Shown here: positions 7,213 to 30,107 of the stretch, one piece after another
Position numbering within the stretch: position 1 is the stretch's first letter
Layout: every line of letters begins with the position of its first letter
Virus record (IMG/VR): IMGVR_UViG_3300020057_000117
Location: 1-30,107 of that record
Source of the DNA: a virus
DNA: 30,107 nt
Reading direction: 5' to 3' (one strand)
Program-made: the position numbers and the translations under genes
The notes under the pieces: generated by a model
What the model saw: the letters and a program-made list of their open reading frames with translations, nothing else
Told to the model about the DNA's origin: nothing
Database searches by the model: none

Positions 7213-9711
7213 ATGCCATTAGTTGAGACAAAAGCATTGCCAGCAGACTTTTATAAACAGTGGGTTAAGAAACACAACTTGAAGGTGAGTGGAGACACGC
7301 AGGAGGAGTTCGACGCTGTAAAGTTAGTTAGAGATAGATATGATGCTTCCAAGGTTGCTAGGCAGAATAATTGTTATTGGGATTTTTATGCTGATATTGC
7401 GACGGGCATTTCAGGTTCTACGGGGGGGGATTGGACAAGAAGGTGGGATTTACAAGAAAAGACAATAATGCCTGCTTATGCCAAATCATCAGGTGACGAT
7501 TTTTATAGTAATATTAAATCTCCGATGACGTTGGGAAGAAAGAACGCCTTTGTAAGTCAATTCAGAAAGATCAATTTAGGGTGGGATGCTAAGCCCACAT
7601 CTGACAAAGACATTGACAAGGATATAATTGTCTCGGCATGTTTGGATTATTTATGGAATACTGCCGACATCAAAATGCAGACTGTGTTGTGGGCAGGAGA
7701 TGCTTATACACATGGTTCGGCATTCTTGCGTACAGTAGAGACTAGAAATACCTATAAAAGAAAGAAGATTAGAGAGCCTAAGGATGAGAAAGAAAAGGCA
7801 TTGGTTGAGAAGGGGAAGTTATTTTGGGAGGATGATGAAGATTACACAGAGAGGAAGATTACCGTTGAATTCACTCCAATCAGGGAGTATTATCCCGATC
7901 CAGAGGCTAGGTGTCAGCATGGTGATCATTATTTTGCCAGATGGGGGATAAGACGACGTGTAGTCAGTCTTGATACTTGCAAACTTCAATACGAGAAAGA
8001 TCCAAATGCTAAAAATGTATCAAAGATCAAACCTACATCATCTTATGTTAATGATGGTGATTATGAATTTTTCAGGAAACCACAAGATGTAGTTGATGTA
8101 GAGGCTGTAGAAATCTTAGAGATGGAAGATATGATAAATGATAAATATGTAGTAGTGGCGAATGATATAGTTATTCTCGAATTACCGTTATCTATTATTT
8201 CACCTGATTGCAGGTTAACTTACCATAAGATTGACTATATTAAAGTGGAGGGTCAATATTATGGAATGGGTGGGGCTGATATATTGATGAATCCGCAAGC
8301 GGCACAGGAGATCTTGGGTAACATGTTTAGAGATTACATGTATAGAACTTACAATCTAAAATATTTAATTGCCGGAGATGTACTCGGTGAGGTTGAAGAA
8401 GGAATGTTAAGATCAGATTCTATGTTTATCCCTTTAAATGTTGAGAAGGGTGAAGCTCTAGGCAGTAAAATTCAGCAAGTAGTTAACGCACCCATTGGTT
8501 TTGATGCGTTCAAATTATTTGAATTAACAGAGAGAGATGCAACAATTGCAAGTAATATAGATCCTTCGCAACTATCATTATTGAAGAGTGGGGAGACAGC
8601 TACAGCTACACTACAAAATAAGGAGCAGCTACAGGATATGATTGGTGGGGTTATTGATAATTTCACCCTAGAGGGTTTCAACACTGTGGGGCAGCAATTA
8701 TGGGCAAGGATACAGAAAAGTTGGTCAGTCTCCAAGGTTAAGAGGATTACAGGGGAGGATGGGAAGGTGACAACAGAAGAAATCTTTAAAAAGATTAGGC
8801 TTGAGGGCATTAAGATTTATGAGAATAAAGATACAGGGAGGCTTGAGAAAGAAGAAATTGATGAAAAATACAGTTTCTTTGAAGCTAAATCAAAATATAC
8901 TAAAACAGATGAGGTTATGGAAGTGTTTATCACTCCAGAATCCAAAAGATCGTTAGGTGATGCGTTCGAGATCCAAAATATGAAAGAGATATTAGCTCAA
9001 CTAAGTGGATTTATGGTTGACCCGAGTAACGAAGCTATGATGCAGCAGCATCAGATGCCGTGGATTAACGGACCTGAGATTATTAAAGATTATTTGAGAA
9101 CGATGAAGAAACCAGAGCGCTATGCTATACGTAATGATCATAGAACTGAGCAAGACGTGAAGATTGCCGAAGAACAGTGTATGGACATGTTAGAGAAATC
9201 AGTACCAGGCAGACCAGGTGAGAGTGATGAGCATAGAGAGTATCAGGCTAAGGTATTAATTTCGTTGAAGACTAGATGGAGCGAGATTGATAGAGAGGTC
9301 AATGAGGACTTGAATGATCAACAAAATAAAATTGCAGAACAAATGGGTGGTATAGATGAACAAATGGGTGGGGTTGATCCAATGACAGGAATGCCGATGC
9401 AGTCAACAATGCCGATGCAGTCAACAATGCCGATGCAGTCAACAATACCAGAGCCACAGGAGAATCAAAAACTTACAAGGGAGAAAGAAAAGCTCGAGGA
9501 GATAATCACAAGGATGGAACAGCATCAGGCTACTGATAGTTTGCCTAAGTTTATGATAAATCAGGCGGCAATGGCACCAATCCAAGGGGCTCAAGGGGGT
9601 GGAGCAGCACCACAACCAGTAGATCAAGCAAGCGTTGATGTGCCGATGCCACAACAACCATCAATGCAAGATATGGGTGGTATGGCAGCTGGAGTACCAA
9701 TGCCAGGATAA
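7213..9711 (+). CDS. Portal protein, P22-like (832 aa)
   Basis: The portal dodecamer forms the unique capsid vertex, the DNA channel and the docking point for terminase. Evidence is the size, the position after terminase and before scaffold/capsid, and portal-like text: an N-terminal helical/clip region with SPMTLGRKNAFVSQFRKI, a central GQYYGMGGADILMNPQAAQEILGN segment, and a long wing with SLLKSGETATATLQN. The C-terminal about 130 residues are low-complexity, rich in Met, Gln and Pro. They include three copies of MPMQST at about residues 727-744 and a short coiled coil (LTREKEKLEEIITRME), a likely barrel or disordered tail. ATG at 7213 follows an A/T-rich SD-less context. Confidence 0.85.
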   Translation: MPLVETKALPADFYKQWVKKHNLKVSGDTQEEFDAVKLVRDRYDASKVARQNNCYWDFYADIATGISGSTGGDWTRRWDLQEKTIMPAYAKSSGDDFYSNIKSPMTLGRKNAFVSQFRKINLGWDAKPTSDKDIDKDIIVSACLDYLWNTADIKMQTVLWAGDAYTHGSAFLRTVETRNTYKRKKIREPKDEKEKALVEKGKLFWEDDEDYTERKITVEFTPIREYYPDPEARCQHGDHYFARWGIRRRVVSLDTCKLQYEKDPNAKNVSKIKPTSSYVNDGDYEFFRKPQDVVDVEAVEILEMEDMINDKYVVVANDIVILELPLSIISPDCRLTYHKIDYIKVEGQYYGMGGADILMNPQAAQEILGNMFRDYMYRTYNLKYLIAGDVLGEVEEGMLRSDSMFIPLNVEKGEALGSKIQQVVNAPIGFDAFKLFELTERDATIASNIDPSQLSLLKSGETATATLQNKEQLQDMIGGVIDNFTLEGFNTVGQQLWARIQKSWSVSKVKRITGEDGKVTTEEIFKKIRLEGIKIYENKDTGRLEKEEIDEKYSFFEAKSKYTKTDEVMEVFITPESKRSLGDAFEIQNMKEILAQLSGFMVDPSNEAMMQQHQMPWINGPEIIKDYLRTMKKPERYAIRNDHRTEQDVKIAEEQCMDMLEKSVPGRPGESDEHREYQAKVLISLKTRWSEIDREVNEDLNDQQNKIAEQMGGIDEQMGGVDPMTGMPMQSTMPMQSTMPMQSTIPEPQENQKLTREKEKLEEIITRMEQHQATDSLPKFMINQAAMAPIQGAQGGGAAPQPVDQASVDVPMPQQPSMQDMGGMAAGVPMPG
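9391..9444 (+). repeat. Three 18-bp tandem repeats in the portal gene
   Basis: ATGCCGATGCAGTCAACA occurs three times in a row, each coding MPMQST in the low-complexity C-terminus. The copies are identical in DNA, which points to recent slippage. Confidence 0.9.
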
Positions 9712-18581: not shown

Positions 18582-21380
18582 ATGATATCGGATTTAAACG
18601 GACTTAATCAAATGTTATCTCCAAAGCCTAGTGCTCCTACGTCTTCTGGGGGTAGTGATCAAGACAATTATAATTATTACAAGAACATGTTTCAGTCCTT
18701 TGCTGGTAGCCCAACTGTCCAAAAACAGATCTTGAGCGAGTTTTATTCGTATAATAGTCCCGAGGAAAAGCAGAAAAGAAGTTTTAAGAATATGTTGAAT
18801 GAAGCTATGTCTCAGCAAAATGCACCTCAGCCTCAATACGATGATTACGGGATGCAAGATCAAGGTGGTGGATTACCACCAGGAACACCAATAGATAATG
18901 GTTATGGAGTTGTTGCTCCACCAGGAACTATGGGTAGATATGATGCTGCAACTGGACAAAACAGAGTAATCGCACCAGGAACACCAATAGATAATGGTTA
19001 TGGAGTTGTTGCTCCACCAGGAACTATGGGTAGATATGATGCTGCAACTGGACAAAACAGAGTAATCACATCAGGAACACCAACTCCTGATGAAACCGAA
19101 GGATCATTTGGATTCGGTACAGATAAAGGGAATCTATTCGGAGAGGGTGGATTAGTAGCATCACAGAGCCAACCAATTAGACAAGGGCTCATTAATCCTG
19201 CTGCTGCTCTGATACAGTCTGGGGGTAAAATTATCGCAGACGTAATAGAAAAAGCATCTTTTAATGCTGCGGCTAGGGCAGGTAAGATTAAGGGAGCTGA
19301 AATACAGCCCGATGGGACTATCTATATAAGAGGAGAGACTGGGAATATTAAAGAGATTATAAATGGGAATGCACTCGAAGCTGCATTTGCCAACTCCGAG
19401 AATGACATACTCAAGCAACAGAAGTTATTAGTGAGCGACGAGGAGAACCAAGATTATACGTCTAATCCAGGTTTAGGCGGCTTAAAATCATCCGTTGGAA
19501 TACTATCATATGCATCCCCAACAGCAATACCTGGGGGTGTTGGTGTTTTAGGGAAGGCTCTTAGTGCTGGTGCAAGAGTTGCAATACCAGCAGGTATGTT
19601 TGGGTTTGGGACTTCAAGACCTGGAGAGGAAGTTGATAAAACTCTTGAAGCTGCTGGAACAGGATTTGCGTTCGGAGCAGGAACAAATTTATTTGGTCAA
19701 GCGGTAAAAGCGATTAAAAATATTCCTAATAACAAAATCTTGAGTTCTATTGATAGTCAGAATCAAGGATTGGCTCAAAAGTATCTTACGAAAGGAACAG
19801 ATCCTGGGTTGGTTGCGGATAGGTTCAATAATTTAACAAATGCAAGACTCAACTATATTACAGAGAACTTAACGGGGTTAGATCAACAAAGAGCATTAAG
19901 TGCTCTCTCGAAAGTTACTGAGAAGACTGATCCTTTTTACAGCACAATAACTAGGCAATTGAAAGCAGTCGAAACTACATTACCTAAAGGTGGGTTCAAA
20001 GGGAATCTTGATAAGCTCGGAAAAACAATTGAAGAAAGGGGTATAAAAATTATCCCAGATAAAAATCCAACAGGCATACAAGATGCAGCTTCTTTGAAAC
20101 AGAAGGTGGTTGAAATCGTAAGATCCGAGAAAGTAGGAGGTGTTGGTGGCGAAGGTATGGGTAACGCATACAAAAAACTATCTGAACGTTTTGAAGAAGA
20201 AATAAAAGGTAAAGTAGGAAAAGTGGATGGATTATTTGATAATTGGATAGGAAAATTAGAAGAGAATGGAGTGGATATTAATGATAAGTCTATAGGATCT
20301 GTATTTGACAGAATCGTAAATTTAACAAAAGATCCGTCGATGGGGAATATTACAGGAACAATTAAATCGTTAGATAATACTCTAGGTAATGCCTATAAAG
20401 CAGTAAACACTGGATCAAGACAATTATCAACAAGTGAACAAGCTAGAATGTCCTTCAGGGAATCATTGAGTGCTATAGTCAAAAATGATTCAAGCGTTTT
20501 GGGTGATTTATATAAGAAAATGAGTTTGTTACATCAAGCCGCTCCTGATGTTATAAGTCAATATAATAAAGGTGGGTCGTTCACTTCACCTTTATTATTG
20601 GGTAGTTTAAAGATTCCTACGGGGAACCTAGTTAATAAGATTGAACAGAATGTGGGTAGAAGTCTACAAGGTTTCGCTGGAAGATTACCAGGGCTTCCTG
20701 GGCTCCCTGGGCTTCCTAAGATTCCTAGTGGTTTGCAAAACTTTACTAAAAATATAAACATCGTACCACAATTAATTAGTACTCTGACTAATAATGGGGA
20801 TCAATCTCCTATCAGTTCATTTGAGGGGATGCCTATGGATACAAACTCACAAATGGGGATGCCTATGAATACAAACTCACAAATGGGGATGCCTATGAAT
20901 GAAGGTGGCAACACTCAAGCATTGAATCAAGTTCTGCAATATGGATTGTTGAATGGATTTATAGATCCTGCCACTTACAATGCACTGTACAAACAAGACA
21001 CTACTAGTGATATCTTGAGTGTTACTGAAAAGAAAGCGCGAAATTCAGCTAATATTGCGCTTCGAAATCTTAATAATATGGAGGAGATTATTAAAAATAA
21101 TTCTGAAGTATTCAATCCGCTTAATATAAAAGGCAGGATTCAAGATCAGCTCGGTGGAATTGTTGCTGACCCTAATAGGGCATATGTCAAGAATAATTTA
21201 AATATTCAATTAGCGCAAACTATTAGAGCCTTGAGTGGTACTGCTGCAAGCGATAATGAAAGGAAGTTCTTGGCTGAACAGCAACCTAATACTAACGATA
21301 CTGTAGAAGTCTCATTGGAGAAATTGAGAGCGCTGCAAGAGTATGCCCAGAGAGAATCAGACTTTTATAATAACTTATAA
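18582..21380 (+). CDS. Large internal virion/ejection protein (932 aa)
   Basis: The largest gene of the window. Residues 1-95 are polar and helical. Residues 100-163 are two near-perfect 32-residue repeats with PGTPIDNGYGVVAPPGTMGR. The centre has Gly/Ala-rich hydrophobic helices (VGVLGKALSAGARVAIPAGM and GTGFAFGAGTNLFGQAVKAI), good candidates for membrane interaction during DNA delivery. Long helical segments follow, then a collagen-like PGLPGLPGLP at about 702-712 and Met-rich repeats at about 748-773. The C-terminal 150 residues are helical. Size and place before the nozzle match ejection proteins such as P22 gp16/gp20 or a tape-like core protein; no lytic transglycosylase motif is visible. 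Confidence 0.55.
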   Translation: MISDLNGLNQMLSPKPSAPTSSGGSDQDNYNYYKNMFQSFAGSPTVQKQILSEFYSYNSPEEKQKRSFKNMLNEAMSQQNAPQPQYDDYGMQDQGGGLPPGTPIDNGYGVVAPPGTMGRYDAATGQNRVIAPGTPIDNGYGVVAPPGTMGRYDAATGQNRVITSGTPTPDETEGSFGFGTDKGNLFGEGGLVASQSQPIRQGLINPAAALIQSGGKIIADVIEKASFNAAARAGKIKGAEIQPDGTIYIRGETGNIKEIINGNALEAAFANSENDILKQQKLLVSDEENQDYTSNPGLGGLKSSVGILSYASPTAIPGGVGVLGKALSAGARVAIPAGMFGFGTSRPGEEVDKTLEAAGTGFAFGAGTNLFGQAVKAIKNIPNNKILSSIDSQNQGLAQKYLTKGTDPGLVADRFNNLTNARLNYITENLTGLDQQRALSALSKVTEKTDPFYSTITRQLKAVETTLPKGGFKGNLDKLGKTIEERGIKIIPDKNPTGIQDAASLKQKVVEIVRSEKVGGVGGEGMGNAYKKLSERFEEEIKGKVGKVDGLFDNWIGKLEENGVDINDKSIGSVFDRIVNLTKDPSMGNITGTIKSLDNTLGNAYKAVNTGSRQLSTSEQARMSFRESLSAIVKNDSSVLGDLYKKMSLLHQAAPDVISQYNKGGSFTSPLLLGSLKIPTGNLVNKIEQNVGRSLQGFAGRLPGLPGLPGLPKIPSGLQNFTKNINIVPQLISTLTNNGDQSPISSFEGMPMDTNSQMGMPMNTNSQMGMPMNEGGNTQALNQVLQYGLLNGFIDPATYNALYKQDTTSDILSVTEKKARNSANIALRNLNNMEEIIKNNSEVFNPLNIKGRIQDQLGGIVADPNRAYVKNNLNIQLAQTIRALSGTAASDNERKFLAEQQPNTNDTVEVSLEKLRALQEYAQRESDFYNNL
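18879..19070 (+). repeat. Two 96-bp tandem repeats in the 932-aa gene
   Basis: Copies 18879-18974 and 18975-19070 differ at one base. Each codes 32 residues starting PGTPIDNGYG; a third copy starts (SGTPTP) and then diverges. Confidence 0.9.
20825..20900 (+). repeat. 30-bp tandem repeats (two and a half copies)
   Basis: The unit starts GGGGATGCCTATG and codes a Met/Asn/Gln-rich decapeptide (GMPMNTNSQM type). The units differ by one base. The composition resembles the Met/Gln repeats of the portal C-terminus. Confidence 0.85.
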
Positions 21381-24636: not shown

Positions 24637-27099
24637 ATGGCAACATATGCACTTGTTACAACAGGAAATCTATCTGGAACAATCGCAAATCAGATAAGCG
24701 GTGGATCTGCAACCATACATGCGAGTACAAATACTAGTGTCCCGACTGGTACGGACGTCTTCGGAGCTACTTTTACTGCCCCGAACACAACAGATACAAG
24801 TAAAGGTGTATTTTTTTACCTGGCTGACAAATCTACATCCACATCTATTACAATTACATTACAAGAAGATATTCTAGGTACCGCTACATGGTTAGACACC
24901 GCAGCGGTAGCAGCAATAAATTCTAGCGACTTACCTTTAGCCGTAGTGGGATCGACCAATACAGGACGTGCATATGGGCAATTCGTAACACCATACACAT
25001 TCGCTACAACTGGGGCGAACAGGTACAGAATTAAGTTCCGAGCGGCAGGTGCGGCTATTGCAACTGCTCAAGCAGGAAGCGGTGGTACGATATGGTATCA
25101 GGCGGTGGATAGCAGGACAGCAACAGCAGGTGCGGCGGATACTTGTTTTCTTTCGGGGATTAACGGTAATACAACACCAGTTGTAGTGACGGTGGATTCT
25201 AATGTCAGTACGTTCTTGGGTTCAAATGTTGCCCTTGCCACTCCTTCAAATTCGAGGGTAGACAATTGTGGTTTATACATAGGGATCGGAGGAAAATTAA
25301 AAGCATCCACGTCTGCTTCTGCGATATTGACCTATAATGGTCCAATTATCGTGGATGGGGACGGCGAAATTGAACAAGATATGTCGAGTGCTGGCTCGTT
25401 CGAATCTACATTCAGAATTCAGGCAGTATCGACCCAAACGCAAGGGATTTTTATATGTCCGAATGGGAAAGATAAATTCAAAGGTGATCCATTCACCCAA
25501 GAAATTGGATACGTATCGGGGCTAGGGACTGCTGCAAGTCCTATTGTACTATCAGCCGCTGTAACTGGATGGAAGACAGGAAAAGAGATATACATTAGTG
25601 CCACTTCTAATTCCGCAACTAATTACAACGAAGGAGAGAAGAGATTTATATTATCCTTTCCTTCAACAACAACAATGATAGTTAGTGCTACATCTGGCGG
25701 TGCTGAATCGGCTTTATCATTTACGCACACGACAGCATGTGATATTGTCTACGCACACGCTAATGTAATAAGAGATAGCGTAGACACTAAGACGTGGAAG
25801 TACTCCAATGGTGCGATAGTGGCAGGATATACGGTTTGGGATTCATTCAAGACAGATCTGACAGGTGGTAACAGTTTATCAAATGGGATCGTGCTTAGGG
25901 CAACACCATTTGGAGGGGCTATTACAAGAATTACACTCGGAAATGGTGTTTTCTATAGAACAGGGAGAGGAGATCCAGTAATCGGGGGCAATTTAGATGC
26001 AAGTATTGCGAGCTATCCGAATCTAACCTCGCTGTACTGCACAAGTGCTATCTCGCACACATCTGGGAATGGATTCTCAATCACGCAATCCAATGTAATA
26101 ATAGATAATTTGTATGTGGGTGCCTCACAAGGTGTTGGGATAAGTCTAAGCGGTGCATCTGGTGTTGTACTTAATAATCCGACACTCAATGCGAATGCAA
26201 TCGGCATATCTGGTTCTGTTGCGATAAACACAGGGGGATCAAATAACAAAATTATAAATGCAAAAATAAATGCGACGAGAGGTTATGGATTATTCTTCAA
26301 TAATGCAGAGGATATCTTTTTCACTAACGGTGGTAATGGCAATAATGGAATTAATCAGTCAGGTAACATGCTATGCGGAACCACACATAACAAGGTATAT
26401 TTCGAAAATATGACAGTGGGCTCTGGAACTCTAATTGCTAGTTACACTCTAATGCTTAACGGGTCTGAGATTAATTTCCAAAAACACAATGCCACGGATA
26501 ATTATCATTTTTGGTTTACGCCATTCGGTAAAGCAGAATTAACTGGACTTACTGGATGCCCAGATGCAACAACATCAGCAAACGGCAACCCAACTTTAAC
26601 TATCACGCCAGAAAGTACATCACCTGGATTTATTTGGAATTTTCAGTCTTTAGTGCGACCTAGCAGCTCGGCATTCATATTATTGAAGAACCAGAAGAAT
26701 GTTACTTATGGCACAGATGTGCTAACGCTAGATTTATATTTACCGGGCTCAACTGTTGCAGATAAAACTGTTAATGCACCAAACGATACTGTAGAAAATA
26801 CTCTGGTTTTGTCACAAAGTTATACAGGTATCGTGCCACTTCTTGCCAGTATAGAAATAGTAGCAAAAAGTGTTGCCGTCGGTGCAAAAACTAGAATCTC
26901 TAATATATATAATGGAACCAACGATATTATTAATTTAAAAACTTGGTATAGAGGAAAACCTGCTACAATACAGTTTGAGCAGTTAGGAGATAGTCAGGCG
27001 GTTTGGCAGGTGCCAACGGCAACGCTTACAACATCTGGCACAACAGGGAAATACTTAACTAAAATATTAACATTGGCTAAATTCATTGGTCTTAAATAA
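24637..27099 (+). CDS. Tailspike / large receptor-binding protein (820 aa)
   Basis: Probably the host-recognition protein. The N-terminal 200 residues are Thr/Ala/Ser-rich beta sequence. From about residue 200, short repeated strands such as CGLYIGIGGKLKASTSASAI and GPIIVDGDGEIEQ are followed by a region like a right-handed beta-helix: NVIIDNLYVGASQG, GVVLNNPTLNANAIG, NNKIINAKINATRG, the stacked asparagine-rich turns typical of pectate-lyase-like spikes. The C-terminal 150 residues (LLASIEIVAKSVAVGAKTRI) form another beta domain, perhaps for trimerisation. Enzyme activity on a polysaccharide is possible; catalytic residues cannot be picked by eye. Confidence 0.7.
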   Translation: MATYALVTTGNLSGTIANQISGGSATIHASTNTSVPTGTDVFGATFTAPNTTDTSKGVFFYLADKSTSTSITITLQEDILGTATWLDTAAVAAINSSDLPLAVVGSTNTGRAYGQFVTPYTFATTGANRYRIKFRAAGAAIATAQAGSGGTIWYQAVDSRTATAGAADTCFLSGINGNTTPVVVTVDSNVSTFLGSNVALATPSNSRVDNCGLYIGIGGKLKASTSASAILTYNGPIIVDGDGEIEQDMSSAGSFESTFRIQAVSTQTQGIFICPNGKDKFKGDPFTQEIGYVSGLGTAASPIVLSAAVTGWKTGKEIYISATSNSATNYNEGEKRFILSFPSTTTMIVSATSGGAESALSFTHTTACDIVYAHANVIRDSVDTKTWKYSNGAIVAGYTVWDSFKTDLTGGNSLSNGIVLRATPFGGAITRITLGNGVFYRTGRGDPVIGGNLDASIASYPNLTSLYCTSAISHTSGNGFSITQSNVIIDNLYVGASQGVGISLSGASGVVLNNPTLNANAIGISGSVAINTGGSNNKIINAKINATRGYGLFFNNAEDIFFTNGGNGNNGINQSGNMLCGTTHNKVYFENMTVGSGTLIASYTLMLNGSEINFQKHNATDNYHFWFTPFGKAELTGLTGCPDATTSANGNPTLTITPESTSPGFIWNFQSLVRPSSSAFILLKNQKNVTYGTDVLTLDLYLPGSTVADKTVNAPNDTVENTLVLSQSYTGIVPLLASIEIVAKSVAVGAKTRISNIYNGTNDIINLKTWYRGKPATIQFEQLGDSQAVWQVPTATLTTSGTTGKYLTKILTLAKFIGLK

Positions 27100-27104
27100 C
27101 AAAA

Positions 27105-27536
27105 ATGAATAAAAACATGCAACCTGAAGTCTTAAATGAAAAGATAGAAAATATAAATGTAAATATTAAAGATTTTAAAGAAAATACTGGAAGGTCCTTT
27201 GAGGATCTAAAGGGATTAATTAAAGAGTTTCAATCGGATCTTAGTCTTCAAATCAGATCCACTAATTTACGCATAGATCTACTCCATGGCACATTGGAAC
27301 AATCTAAGGCAGACCGAAGGGAGCTACACAAAGAGGTGGACGCCCACTCAGTTAAAATTACCGCAGAGGAATTAGTTTTAAAAGAATTAACGGATAAGAT
27401 AGTCAAGTACGAGAATAATGTGAGAGGAGCAAAATCGGTGTACTCCACGCTTTTATCTATTATCGGATTTGTTGGTGTAGCTGTTGCTGCAATTCTTGGT
27501 TTATTATCCTTAATTGGGAAATTTAATATTAGTTAA
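27105..27536 (+). CDS. Coiled-coil membrane protein, XhlA/holin accessory-like (143 aa)
   Basis: Residues 5-105 are a coiled-coil type sequence (EKIENINVNIKDF, ELHKEVDAHSVKITAEELVLKEL). Residues 110-140 form one strong transmembrane helix (LLSIIGFVGVAVAAILGLL). This architecture matches haemolysin XhlA-type and related proteins that act with holin and endolysin. The start is either ATG 27105 or the in-frame ATG at 27117. The endolysin gene starts 6 bp later. Confidence 0.65.
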   Translation: MNKNMQPEVLNEKIENINVNIKDFKENTGRSFEDLKGLIKEFQSDLSLQIRSTNLRIDLLHGTLEQSKADRRELHKEVDAHSVKITAEELVLKELTDKIVKYENNVRGAKSVYSTLLSIIGFVGVAVAAILGLLSLIGKFNIS

Positions 27537-27542
27537 TTATAC

Positions 27543-28307
27543 ATGGCTAGACTAACAGATCTACAAATTACAGCTTCTTATCAGGATCATCTGAACTGGG
27601 GAAGTCCATATCCTGGTATAGATTTTGGCGATAGTGGGCGCGAAGGCTTCGCAATATCACCACTTTTTTCCGGGCGGTGTATTTTTGTGGGAAAAGACAA
27701 CGCTGGGGCTAATTATGTAGTTGTAGATTCGGGTGAAGAAGGTCATTTCTACTATGTACACAACAAGCAAAATACTGCTTCTTTGGGTCAGTGGTTGGAT
27801 TGCCATTCGGACATTGTTGGATTTATGGGCAGAACAGGAAACGCAAGTGGACCACATTGTCACGTTGGCAATAAGGTCAATGGTAATTATATAGATTTTG
27901 GTAATAAACTAGCAAGAGCTTATCCTAATCCACCAGATACCGACTCCAATTCTTATAAGTTATTCAATACGGAAGGTGGTAAGGTAGCATCATACCAAGA
28001 AGAGTCTCAAGCTTTTGCGTATTATCTTGATTACAGGGCTACTAGAATCATGTATAATAATCAAAATATTACTCAACAATTTGATAACATGGCAAATAAG
28101 CTAGAGGGGGAGATTCAGAAATTACAAACGCAATTAGATATCTTAAATGGGACAGTGAAGACCCTTCAAGGAAGTCTTGACAATGCTAGTACATCGAATA
28201 TGGGACTCAAAGTTGAGAATGGGAAATTAAAGAAAGACATAGAAGGTGTAGAAATTTTTAAGAAATCGCTATTTTTTTCTCTTTATCTGTTATTTAAAAG
28301 AAAATGA
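27543..28307 (+). CDS. Endolysin-like M23 peptidase with coiled-coil tail (254 aa)
   Basis: Residues 1-140 are a LytM/M23 peptidase domain: YPGIDFGDSGREG at 23-35, VVVDSGEEGHFYYVH ending at H73, and GRTGNASGPHCHVGN with the HxH pair H105/H107. M23 enzymes cut peptidoglycan cross-bridges using zinc held by a His, an Asp and a His. The Asp (D27) and the HxH are present, but the first His of the HxxxD motif is Tyr23. H16 could perhaps replace it. Residues 185-245 form a coiled coil, and the end (KSLFFSLYLLFKRK) is a short hydrophobic stretch with basic residues that could sit on the membrane. The stop overlaps the next ATG (ATGA). Confidence 0.7.
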   Translation: MARLTDLQITASYQDHLNWGSPYPGIDFGDSGREGFAISPLFSGRCIFVGKDNAGANYVVVDSGEEGHFYYVHNKQNTASLGQWLDCHSDIVGFMGRTGNASGPHCHVGNKVNGNYIDFGNKLARAYPNPPDTDSNSYKLFNTEGGKVASYQEESQAFAYYLDYRATRIMYNNQNITQQFDNMANKLEGEIQKLQTQLDILNGTVKTLQGSLDNASTSNMGLKVENGKLKKDIEGVEIFKKSLFFSLYLLFKRK

Positions 28308-28621
28308 ATTTAATTACAATTCCTATTGCTAGATTTTACAACTGGTTACCTGATCGAGTTAAAGTATATATATATACTGGTTCTTCTGTACTTTTTTCTA
28401 CTTTTTTAGGTTTGCTTACAAGAGATATTTTATCGCTAGAATTTTCCAATGAATATATGGTCGCTTTCGTTTTATTTGTTACTGGGCTTATTAATCAGAT
28501 TCAGAAAGAAGTTGTTGAAGCAGGTACTAAGGCTTTAGTGGAGCAAGGAAGTAAGACTACAATCGCAAAATTGGAGACAAAAGTTGAGAATACTCAAGAA
28601 CTACTTAAAAGAGCTCCTTGA
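28304..28621 (+). CDS. Holin-like membrane protein (105 aa)
   Basis: Two hydrophobic segments, about residues 22-40 (YIYTGSSVLFSTFLGLLTR) and 51-66 (YMVAFVLFVTGLINQI), then a charged helical C-terminus (KTTIAKLETKVENTQEL). Size and topology suit a class II holin, and it overlaps the endolysin stop. Its last 28 bp overlap the end of the convergent nuclease gene. Confidence 0.65.
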   Translation: MNLITIPIARFYNWLPDRVKVYIYTGSSVLFSTFLGLLTRDILSLEFSNEYMVAFVLFVTGLINQIQKEVVEAGTKALVEQGSKTTIAKLETKVENTQELLKRAP

Positions 28622-29079
28622 TTTAATGCTCTCTCTACAGCATCTATCGTTCTGACAATATAATATTCAGCTCCCTGAGCTTCCACCCATAATTGCATCT
28701 GTGCTTGATCGTCTTTTTGTTTCCCAATAGAGGACTTTACTTCAAAGAATATTATACGACCACCTTTGATCACTATTATATCAGGAAACCCCTTGTGTTG
28801 ACCTTTAGAAATTGATCTATAATGATCTTTATCCCATACGGGCGTATTGTTTGTCCTTTGAATAAATAATTTGCCTAATACCATTTGTAGCAGCAGGTAA
28901 TCAATAATTGAAGATTGTGCACTGTCTTCAGAAAACAATAGACCCTTTGTCGCTGGTTCGTATGGAGGCTTCTTTTTTACAACTTCCGTATCTAATACCA
29001 AGGCTTTTGTAAACATCAATGCGTCAAATTTAGTATTTTTACGTCTCTGATTCTTGTTAATAAGCTCTAGGATGCTCAT
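28594..29079 (-). CDS. VRR-NUC family nuclease (161 aa)
   Basis: VRR-NUC proteins are PD-(D/E)XK nucleases; phage versions can resolve branched DNA or act in replication and packaging. The core is complete: E51 and Q55 in SEDSAQSSIIDYLL, GFPDI with D100, FFEVKSS with E113 and K115, then Q125 in QAQMQLWVEAQG and the strand YYIVRT. The N-terminal 45 residues are basic (NKNQRRKNTKFD) and may bind DNA. The start (GCATGAGC) lies one base after the stop of the first Gly-rich repeat gene, and its leader resembles the leaders of those genes. It converges with the lysis cassette. Confidence 0.85.
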   Translation of the reverse strand: MSILELINKNQRRKNTKFDALMFTKALVLDTEVVKKKPPYEPATKGLLFSEDSAQSSIIDYLLLQMVLGKLFIQRTNNTPVWDKDHYRSISKGQHKGFPDIIVIKGGRIIFFEVKSSIGKQKDDQAQMQLWVEAQGAEYYIVRTIDAVERALNQGALLSSS

Positions 29080-29080
29080 G

Positions 29081-29395
29081 CTATATATTCTTAATTATTA
29101 AATTATATGGGTATCTTCCATATCCAAATCCATTTCCATCTCCATATCCATATCCATATCCATCCCCATATCCATCCCCATTCCTATCTCCATCTCCATA
29201 TCCATATCCATATCCATATCCATTCCCATCTCCATCTCCATATCTATATCCATATCCATTTCCATCTCCATCTTCATATCCATATCCATATCCATTTCCA
29301 TATCCACCTCCATTTCCATATCCATATCCATTCCCATATCCATTTCCATATCCATATCCATCTCCATCTCCATCTCTACTTAATGGGCTACTCAT
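29081..29395 (-). CDS. Gly-Tyr/Asp/Asn repeat protein 1 (104 aa)
   Basis: Starts MSSPLSRDGDGDGYGYGNG and continues almost entirely as Gly-X dipeptides with X = Tyr, Asp or Asn (rarely Arg or Glu). It ends GFGYGRYPYNLIIKNI and stops with TAG one base before the nuclease ATG. The DNA is a hexamer array (GGATAT, GGAGAT, GGAAAT), so five of six frames are open. The chosen frame is supported by conserved ends, tight coupling to the nuclease and shared start context. The composition suggests a disordered, calcium-binding or phase-separating protein. This is inference; similar Gly-rich dipeptide proteins are known from phages without clear function. Confidence 0.5.
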   Translation of the reverse strand: MSSPLSRDGDGDGYGYGNGYGNGYGYGNGGGYGNGYGYGYEDGDGNGYGYRYGDGDGNGYGYGYGYGDGDRNGDGYGDGYGYGYGDGNGFGYGRYPYNLIIKNI

Positions 29396-29399
29396 AATA

Positions 29400-29711
29400 T
29401 TAATTCTTAATTATTAAATTATATGGGTATCTTCCATATCCAAATCCATTTCCATCTCCATATCCATATCCATATCCATCCCCATATCCATCCCCATTCC
29501 TATCTCCATATCCATATCCATATCCATATCCATCTCCATCCCCATCCCCATATCCATCCCCATATCCATATCCATATCCATCTCCATCTCCATCTCCATC
29601 TCCATATCCATATCCATCCCCATTCCTATCTCCATATCTATATCCATATCCATATCCATCTCCATATCCATTTCCATATCCACCTCCATATCTACTTAAT
29701 GGGCTACTCAT
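29400..29711 (-). CDS. Gly-Tyr/Asp/Asn repeat protein 2 (103 aa)
   Basis: Same architecture as its neighbour: MSSPLSRYGGGYGNG start, Gly-X repeats in a different order and with more Asp (GDGDGDGDGYGYG), end GFGYGRYPYNLIIKN. Stop TAA is followed by TATT and then the ATG of gene 1, so translation is probably coupled. The conserved N- and C-termini are nearly identical in DNA, while the hexamer array differs in order and length, the mark of slippage and unequal exchange. Confidence 0.5.
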   Translation of the reverse strand: MSSPLSRYGGGYGNGYGDGYGYGYRYGDRNGDGYGYGDGDGDGDGYGYGYGDGYGDGDGDGYGYGYGYGDRNGDGYGDGYGYGYGDGNGFGYGRYPYNLIIKN

Positions 29712-29715
29712 AATA

Positions 29716-29997
29716 TTAATTCTTAATTATTAAATTATATGGGTATCTTCCATATCCAAATCCATTTCCATATCCATATTCACTTCCATCTCCATCTCTA
29801 TATCCATTTCCATATCCATCTCCATTTCCACCTCCATATCCATATCCATATCCATATCCATCTCCATTCCCATTCCCATTCCCATATCCATATCCATTTC
29901 CACCTCCATATCCATTTCCATCTCCATATCCATTTCCATCTCCATATCCATGCCCATCCCCATATCCATATCCATCTCTACTTAATGAACTACTCAT
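29716..29997 (-). CDS. Gly-Tyr/Asp/Asn repeat protein 3 (93 aa)
   Basis: Starts MSSSLSRDGYGYGDGHGYGDG, is about ten residues shorter than copies 1 and 2 and has GNGNGNGDG and GGGNG variants. It ends GSEYGYGNGFGYGRYPYNLIIKN. Same 4-bp spacing (TATT) to the next copy. Confidence 0.5.
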   Translation of the reverse strand: MSSSLSRDGYGYGDGHGYGDGNGYGDGNGYGGGNGYGYGNGNGNGDGYGYGYGYGGGNGDGYGNGYRDGDGSEYGYGNGFGYGRYPYNLIIKN

Positions 29998-30001
29998 AAT
30001 A

Positions 30002-30107
30002 TTAATTCTTAATTATTAAATTATATGGGTAGCTTCCACGTCCATCTCCATCTCCATATCCATATCCATATCCATATCCATTCCCATCTCCATCTCCATA
30101 TCTATAT
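30002..30107 (-). CDS. Gly-Tyr/Asp/Asn repeat protein 4, cut by the window edge
   Basis: The C-terminal 34 residues are visible: Gly-X repeats, then DGRGSYPYNLIIKN and TAA. The end differs from copies 1-3 (GRGSYPYN instead of GRYPYN). The 5' part and any further copies lie to the right of the window. Confidence 0.5.
   Translation of the reverse strand, partial: YRYGDGDGNGYGYGYGYGDGDGRGSYPYNLIIKN

Follow-up and report, generated by a model that had tools for sequence, protein, structure and literature searches.

The stretch of DNA analysed here (the window, 30,107 bp, an IMG/VR virus record) carries terminase, capsid, tail and M23 peptidase genes on its + strand. At its right end, on the - strand, lies a tandem set of hypervariable genes whose products alternate Gly with mainly Tyr, Asp or Asn (Table 1). 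These are called Gly-X genes below. Three of them are complete and the fourth is truncated, in agreement with the first-pass annotation, which had proposed such a multigene set. Its description of the spacing and of the termini was also correct: the genes are 4 bp apart, the last one is separated from the nuclease ATG (29079) by 1 bp, and the products begin with MSS-LSR and end in YPYNLIIKN. It had further stated that only the internal hexamer array varies. The array is indeed hypervariable, but the termini vary slightly too, with N-termini MSS[P/S]LSR and C-termini RYPYNLIIKN or SYPYNLIIKN. Periods of 6 bp and 316 bp score high in TRF, and a search of Rfam with positions 26000-30107 gave no match. 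The opposite-strand frames are open as well, as any frame of a 6-bp array tends to be. In-frame tandem repeats are also present in the structural genes of the window, at 9390-9446 (18-bp units), 18877-19083 (96-bp units) and 20825-20900 (30-bp units).

Table 1. Features at the right end of the window
Feature	Position	Strand	Remark
Nuclease gene, 161 aa, GxPD...ExK motif	28594..29079	-	PHROG endonuclease / Holliday junction resolvase
Gly-X gene 1, 104 aa	29081..29395	-	Adjoins nuclease; C-terminal end YPYNLIIKNI (stop)
GGRNAT hexamer arrays	29117..29975	-	Coding cores of the Gly-X genes
TATT spacer, 4 bp, genes 1/2	29396..29399	-	Same between genes 2-3 and 3-4
Gly-X gene 2, 103 aa	29400..29711	-	Mosaic of two sister-phage copies
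Gly-X gene 3, 93 aa, MSSSLSR variant	29716..29997	-	174-bp run in common with the L007:2744 copy
Gly-X gene 4, 3' part only	30002..30107	-	Cut by contig end; terminus GRGSYPYNLIIKN (stop)

The constant 3' end was used as a search pattern and found one other viral contig, IMGVR_UViG_3300020180_000037 (43,536 bp). This sister contig is 99.4% identical to the window over a 14 kb structural region and 98% identical over the stretch of nuclease and array. The array was suspected to extend to the right of the window, and the sister contig bears this out with 16 complete or nearly complete Gly-X copies in addition to partial ones, split into two arrays that flank MoxR and VWA genes. Array A has six complete genes and one running off the contig end, and array B has nine. 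The gene order toward the contig end is AlaRS, primase/helicase-like, Sak4-like annealing ATPase, SSB-like (so labelled from our reading of its C-terminus), orf91 and array A. The contig start continues with the rest of a Gly-X gene, a MoxR-type AAA ATPase, VWA/DUF2201, array B and the nuclease. In both arrays the first ATG overlaps the stop of the preceding gene. The same contig encodes a 673-aa alanyl-tRNA synthetase (L005:4907-6928; NCBIfam NF002436, 614 bits). Some fecal and Gram-positive phage records contain similar synthetases with 33-41% identity, and such relatives may be a hint to the host.

The Gly-X copies are mosaics between the two contigs. Gene 1 has a 133-bp exact run and its first 61 residues in common with the right-end copy of the sister contig (L005:14528-14711), and gene 2 combines a stretch of 69 bp found in one sister copy (L007:2434) with 251 bp found in another (L007:3810). 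Since both are metagenome contigs, this pattern could partly be assembly error. In the cultured Barba phages, however, the leader is identical and the arrays differ by whole hexamers and by X substitutions; thus, the diversity of the arrays is not only an assembly effect.

The nuclease had been proposed to be a VRR-NUC enzyme coupled to the array. Pfam returned no VRR_NUC match, only a weak Hjc match below its cut-off (18.5 bits) and weak NERD and Cas4 matches, and the PHROG matches had E values of 4e-11 and 2e-9. By its motif, the protein is a PD-(D/E)xK-type nuclease. It was no recurrent neighbour when the neighbours of Gly-X genes were compared all against all, so the coupling was not upheld; in the operon of the present phage, the nuclease is just the gene that comes next.

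Translation and evolution of the Gly-X frame

A scan for eight GGNNAY hexamers gave at least 120 rows and found Gly-X genes in at least 95 phage contigs, with 109 Gly-X ORFs among the matches listed, many of them 70-130 aa long. They encode short, fast-changing proteins with Gly at every second residue and come from phages of many environments. Gly-X genes are probably often missed in annotation. A tblastn search with a Gly-X protein found nothing in named phages, probably an effect of the low-complexity filter, which would mask the query. Matches to (GGNTAY) in cellular genomes were mostly long bacterial proteins (about 820 aa; loci L223-L334), many of them with nearly pure (GY)n at the end. 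From their sequence they look like Wzc-type tyrosine kinases and are hence unrelated. Some phage Gly-X runs belong to larger proteins. They lie inside DUF7666-type proteins in L163 (Pfam DUF7666, 105 bits) and L136 (by eye), and in L108, L134, L145, L157, L185 and L189 they are joined on their C-terminal side to an unnamed domain of some 150 aa (NGxxVYxVDGxPT...TGSCxxGR...YGG). The L189 copy of this domain had no Pfam match.

Several properties of the arrays bear on translation. The first stop falls within two codons past the array end in the Gly-X frame in 40 of 95 arrays, against 3 and 18 in the other frames. In a set of 71 arrays to which the neighbour gene led independently, the stop comes immediately behind the last X in 51. 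The overlap of the Gly-X ATG with the preceding gene is 18 nt in 36 cases and 6, 9 or 12 nt in others. The sequence of the leader peptide (..RTINFEDSQNSYG) is kept despite differing codons; in the leader INFEDSQ, Ser is encoded by both TCN and AGY. SD-like sites precede 40 of 78 Gly-X ATGs compared with 9.6% of random ATGs, a signal partly produced by the codons of the overlapping upstream gene. The wobble base of the X codon tracks the GC content of the contig (Spearman rho 0.50) while the Gly-X pattern stays unchanged. Stop positions, conserved leaders and wobble composition together argue that the Gly-X genes are almost certainly translated. A His-rich frame on the opposite strand had been named as the rival. 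It is disfavoured, as GC-rich relatives keep the Gly-X sense while their antisense turns into other repeats, and the stop positions track the Gly-X frame only.

Alternatively, the units could serve as guide RNAs in a system like VIPR, in which a phage RNA-binding protein would read them. The vrRNAs of VIPR are phage-encoded non-coding arrays of 9-16 tandem YNNGG repeats with period 5 and a hypervariable NN, and they have a constant 3' end and an adjacent RAMP protein (RRM plus G-loop) (PMC13142463). The present arrays resemble them in the phage location, the tandem units of GG-containing repeats, the hypervariable letters of the core and the constant 3' end. Their partner is also of a predicted RNA-binding type (Sm-like, see below), and the dominance of GGC as repeat codon in 62 of 71 relatives recalls the GGY/NN design. 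However, the period is 6 and not 5, and the longest uninterrupted run averages 22-27 repeats per unit. Only one position is truly variable, and C is rare there. With 88% A at position 5, a skip-code target would have to carry T at almost every third position. The start, stop and leader evidence shows a protein-coding unit, and the adjacent partner models as Sm-like rather than as an RRM-type RAMP, a prediction made within the folded subset of the phage's unknown genes. We therefore consider guide RNAs very improbable. A CsrA sponge with repeated ANGGA was ruled out, since the GC-rich relatives have GGC in place of GGA.

The core shows near-strict X-Gly alternation in the 19 copies of the window and the sister contig. 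The Gly positions use GGA (615) and GGG (46), and the X codons are TAT (318), GAT (191), AAT (100), GGT (27) and TTT (26), which amount to 320 Tyr, 191 Asp and 100 Asn with few other residues. Only 2 of the 611 Tyr/Asp/Asn X codons of the phage have C at the wobble position, compared with 25.6% in its other genes. Within the arrays, heterozygosity is 0.57 at the first position of the X codon and 0.075 at its wobble. Our reading is that repeat exchange homogenises all but what selection keeps mixed, so that the Tyr/Asp/Asn mix is probably maintained by selection. Once composition is taken into account, the X residues follow one another at random, with a Y fraction of 0.42 +/- 0.11, and the patterning of Tyr along the array showed no sign of even spacing. 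Diversity-generating (A-to-N) mutagenesis is not needed, as hexamer shuffling accounts for the data.

The DUF6948 partner gene

In the all-against-all comparison, a single family stood out among the neighbours; it lies directly upstream on the same strand at 35 loci. This family is Pfam DUF6948 (PF22253), whose function is given there as unknown. Against its curated cut-off of 27 bits, L198 (103) and the L149 record (110) pass, and L179 (21.9) falls below. With an iterated profile, a DUF6948 gene was found directly upstream of 68 of the 87 Gly-X ORFs with enough upstream DNA, and the rest include several ORFs that stand second or third in a tandem. This screen gave no match at any of 81 terminase-related control loci. 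It also missed orf91 and is thus of limited sensitivity. In the other direction, a search based on the protein family alone gave 80 DUF6948 loci, 73 of them with downstream sequence. A Gly-X gene follows directly in 72 of the 73 and a GT microsatellite in the last. The counts of both searches stem mostly from one DUF6948 subfamily and include some near-duplicate contigs. The tie between DUF6948 and Gly-X genes thus appears near-obligate.

Among cultured or named phages, the same pair is present in Rheinheimera phage Barba (gp018-gp017) and in Iodobacter phage PhiPLPE, where an unannotated Gly-X ORF lies right behind the DUF6948 gene PhiPLPE_84 at about 46.2 kb of EU876853 (L420:1150-1410). It was also found in Chlorobiaceae CV-1-33, Pectobacterium Ymer, Vibrio IKEMa6-1 and a Manatee Spring podovirus. 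Among 274 bacterial genomes, from one class, that of a known carrier, a single genome matched DUF6948, and there too a Gly-X gene follows. In L168 and L182 the whole pair is duplicated in tandem. We are confident that the module of the two genes is real. Neutral microsatellite growth, by which the arrays would be functionless products of slippage, can draw on the hexamer-unit indels between isolates, which show active slippage or recombination. Such growth is already contradicted by the pairing and by the frame, stops, leader and three-way X mix that are kept in unrelated phages, and we give it practically no credence.

A typical DUF6948 member was modelled with AlphaFold2 (pLDDT 88). In Foldseek, the model matches almost exclusively Sm/LSm structures, with TM-scores of only about 0.5-0.7. 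PDB entry 3by7 is the best natural match, and the designed protein TIP60, presumably a fusion built on 3by7, is also at the top. The small, strongly bent five-stranded sheet of the Sm fold is seen in the predicted models only. The sequence comparison of DUF6948 with PDB entries, 3by7 included, gave no match. 3by7 is reportedly a marine Sm-like pentamer of putative cyanophage origin; a viral source is likely for it too. From these models, an Sm-like fold of DUF6948 is highly probable.

In the present phage, orf91 stands in front of array A. Its model (pLDDT 84), built on an alignment of distant DUF6948 sequences, also finds 3by7 first (E 1e-4), and an Sm-like fold is predicted for orf91 with only slightly less assurance. 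At the sequence level, orf91 is weakly similar to DUF6948 and may be a divergent relative: it has no Pfam match, scores 11.2 bits with the iterated profile, and aligns by hhalign with E 0.0018 and a probability of 15%. A 65%-identical relative of orf91 on contig 2823768270_000001 (L432) reaches 22.7 bits with the DUF6948 profile.

That contig has the order RecT, SSB, Sm-like, MoxR, VWA, Gly-X, Gly-X. Its MoxR and VWA are 39% and 31% identical to those of the present phage, and its Gly-X tails are YPYPLVTR and YPYSLTTKS compared with YPYNLIIKN. In three more contigs, a VWA gene precedes Gly-X, and upstream there is a weak Sm-like match. Array B is therefore in a conserved place, and array A is in the commoner one, behind the Sm-like gene. 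The conserved partners of Gly-X genes thus appear to be the Sm-like DUF6948 gene and, in one branch, MoxR-VWA. Pairs of MoxR AAA+ and VWA proteins are known, including DUF2201-type VWA, and no description of them with Gly-X or Sm-like genes was found in the literature.

No paper was found on DUF6948 or DUF7666, and no published description of the Sm-like/Gly-X gene pair. A function, fold or Gly-X partner of DUF6948 was not found on record in the literature searched. The predicted Sm fold of DUF6948 and its pairing with Gly-X genes are new here.

A possible Sm-like/Gly-X assembly

Most neighbours of Gly-X genes (287 of 341) are on the same strand, and they include a Sak4-like annealing protein, polymerase, helicase and methyltransferases. 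A setting among early DNA recombination and replication genes is well supported. The Gly-X proteins have the composition of prion-like, sticker-and-spacer proteins, with Gly and Tyr stickers, Asn/Ser/Asp spacers and a free order, which fits the phase-separating protein that the first-pass annotation had considered. Its ideas of calcium binding and of a surface antigen found no direct support. Asp accounts for about 25% of the residues and Lys/Arg are almost absent, which argues against direct binding of nucleic acid by Gly-X itself. Composition is kept and order is not, as predicted for a sticker-and-spacer protein. Condensation of Gly-X, judged from its composition alone, is conceivable at somewhat less than even chances.

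We propose, tentatively, that the array is an amplified, fast-recombining set of copies that partners the phage Sm-like (DUF6948) protein in a condensate or scaffold; the whole proposal seems to us a little less probable than its opposite. The Sm-like protein would form a ring on single-stranded DNA or RNA, and the Gly-X protein would dock on this ring via its conserved end peptides, leader or tail. Many weak Tyr contacts, spaced by Gly, Asn and Asp, would link the rings into a condensate or fibre, which would concentrate the recombinase/SSB machinery, and MoxR-VWA would remodel the assembly. The arrays would be free to expand, shrink and shuffle because only composition matters.

Two other functions are each unlikely, in our estimate, but not negligible. 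Gly-X could be an anti-defence or host-inhibiting protein, for example with slippery glycine repeats jamming ClpXP/Lon or as a variable decoy, and the Sm-like partner would be its carrier or regulator. An early operon that has DNA methyltransferases nearby, the small size, the fast diversification between near-identical phages and the presence of the gene in only some phages are consistent with this. On the other hand, a near-obligate tie to one Sm-like family within an SSB/recombinase context points to a role in work on nucleic acids, there is no known defence target, and a random order of X is unlike an epitope in an arms race. Alternatively, the Sm-like protein could be an RNA chaperone or translational regulator with Gly-X as its detached tail, and no condensate would be involved. 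The predicted Sm fold, the gene overlap of 6-18 nt, which suggests a fixed stoichiometry, and the fusion of Gly-X tracts to globular domains elsewhere are in favour of it. Nevertheless, the setting points more consistently to DNA recombination than to RNA, and Gly-X has no RG motif. Eukaryotic Sm/LSm proteins have low-complexity tails, Gly/Arg-rich, and low-complexity partners. The phage pair shares with them a ring-type nucleic-acid-binding fold, here predicted, and Gly-rich low-complexity sequence. It differs in that the viral low-complexity part is a separate, tandem-amplified gene with strict Gly-X and no Arg-Gly.

There is also a slim chance that the order of X carries information and that each array acts as a recognition element at the protein level, displayed on the Sm-like ring. 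One dipeptide would then stand for one nucleotide or one partner residue, and the multi-copy arrays would be a rapidly recombining repertoire for phage-phage or host conflict.

As for the proposed condensate or scaffold, its building blocks would be a very common gene pair of phages, consisting of a predicted Sm-like ring protein and a low-complexity protein of the self-association type. DUF6948 gains a predicted fold and a partner. The fixed wobble beside the mixed X codon is a natural record of how a low-complexity protein evolves. Since the pair occurs in cultured phages of Rheinheimera, Iodobacter and Pectobacterium, phage condensates at recombination sites are directly testable. If the proposal is true, the pairing of Sm rings with low-complexity proteins that is seen in eukaryotic RNA granules would extend to the viruses of bacteria.
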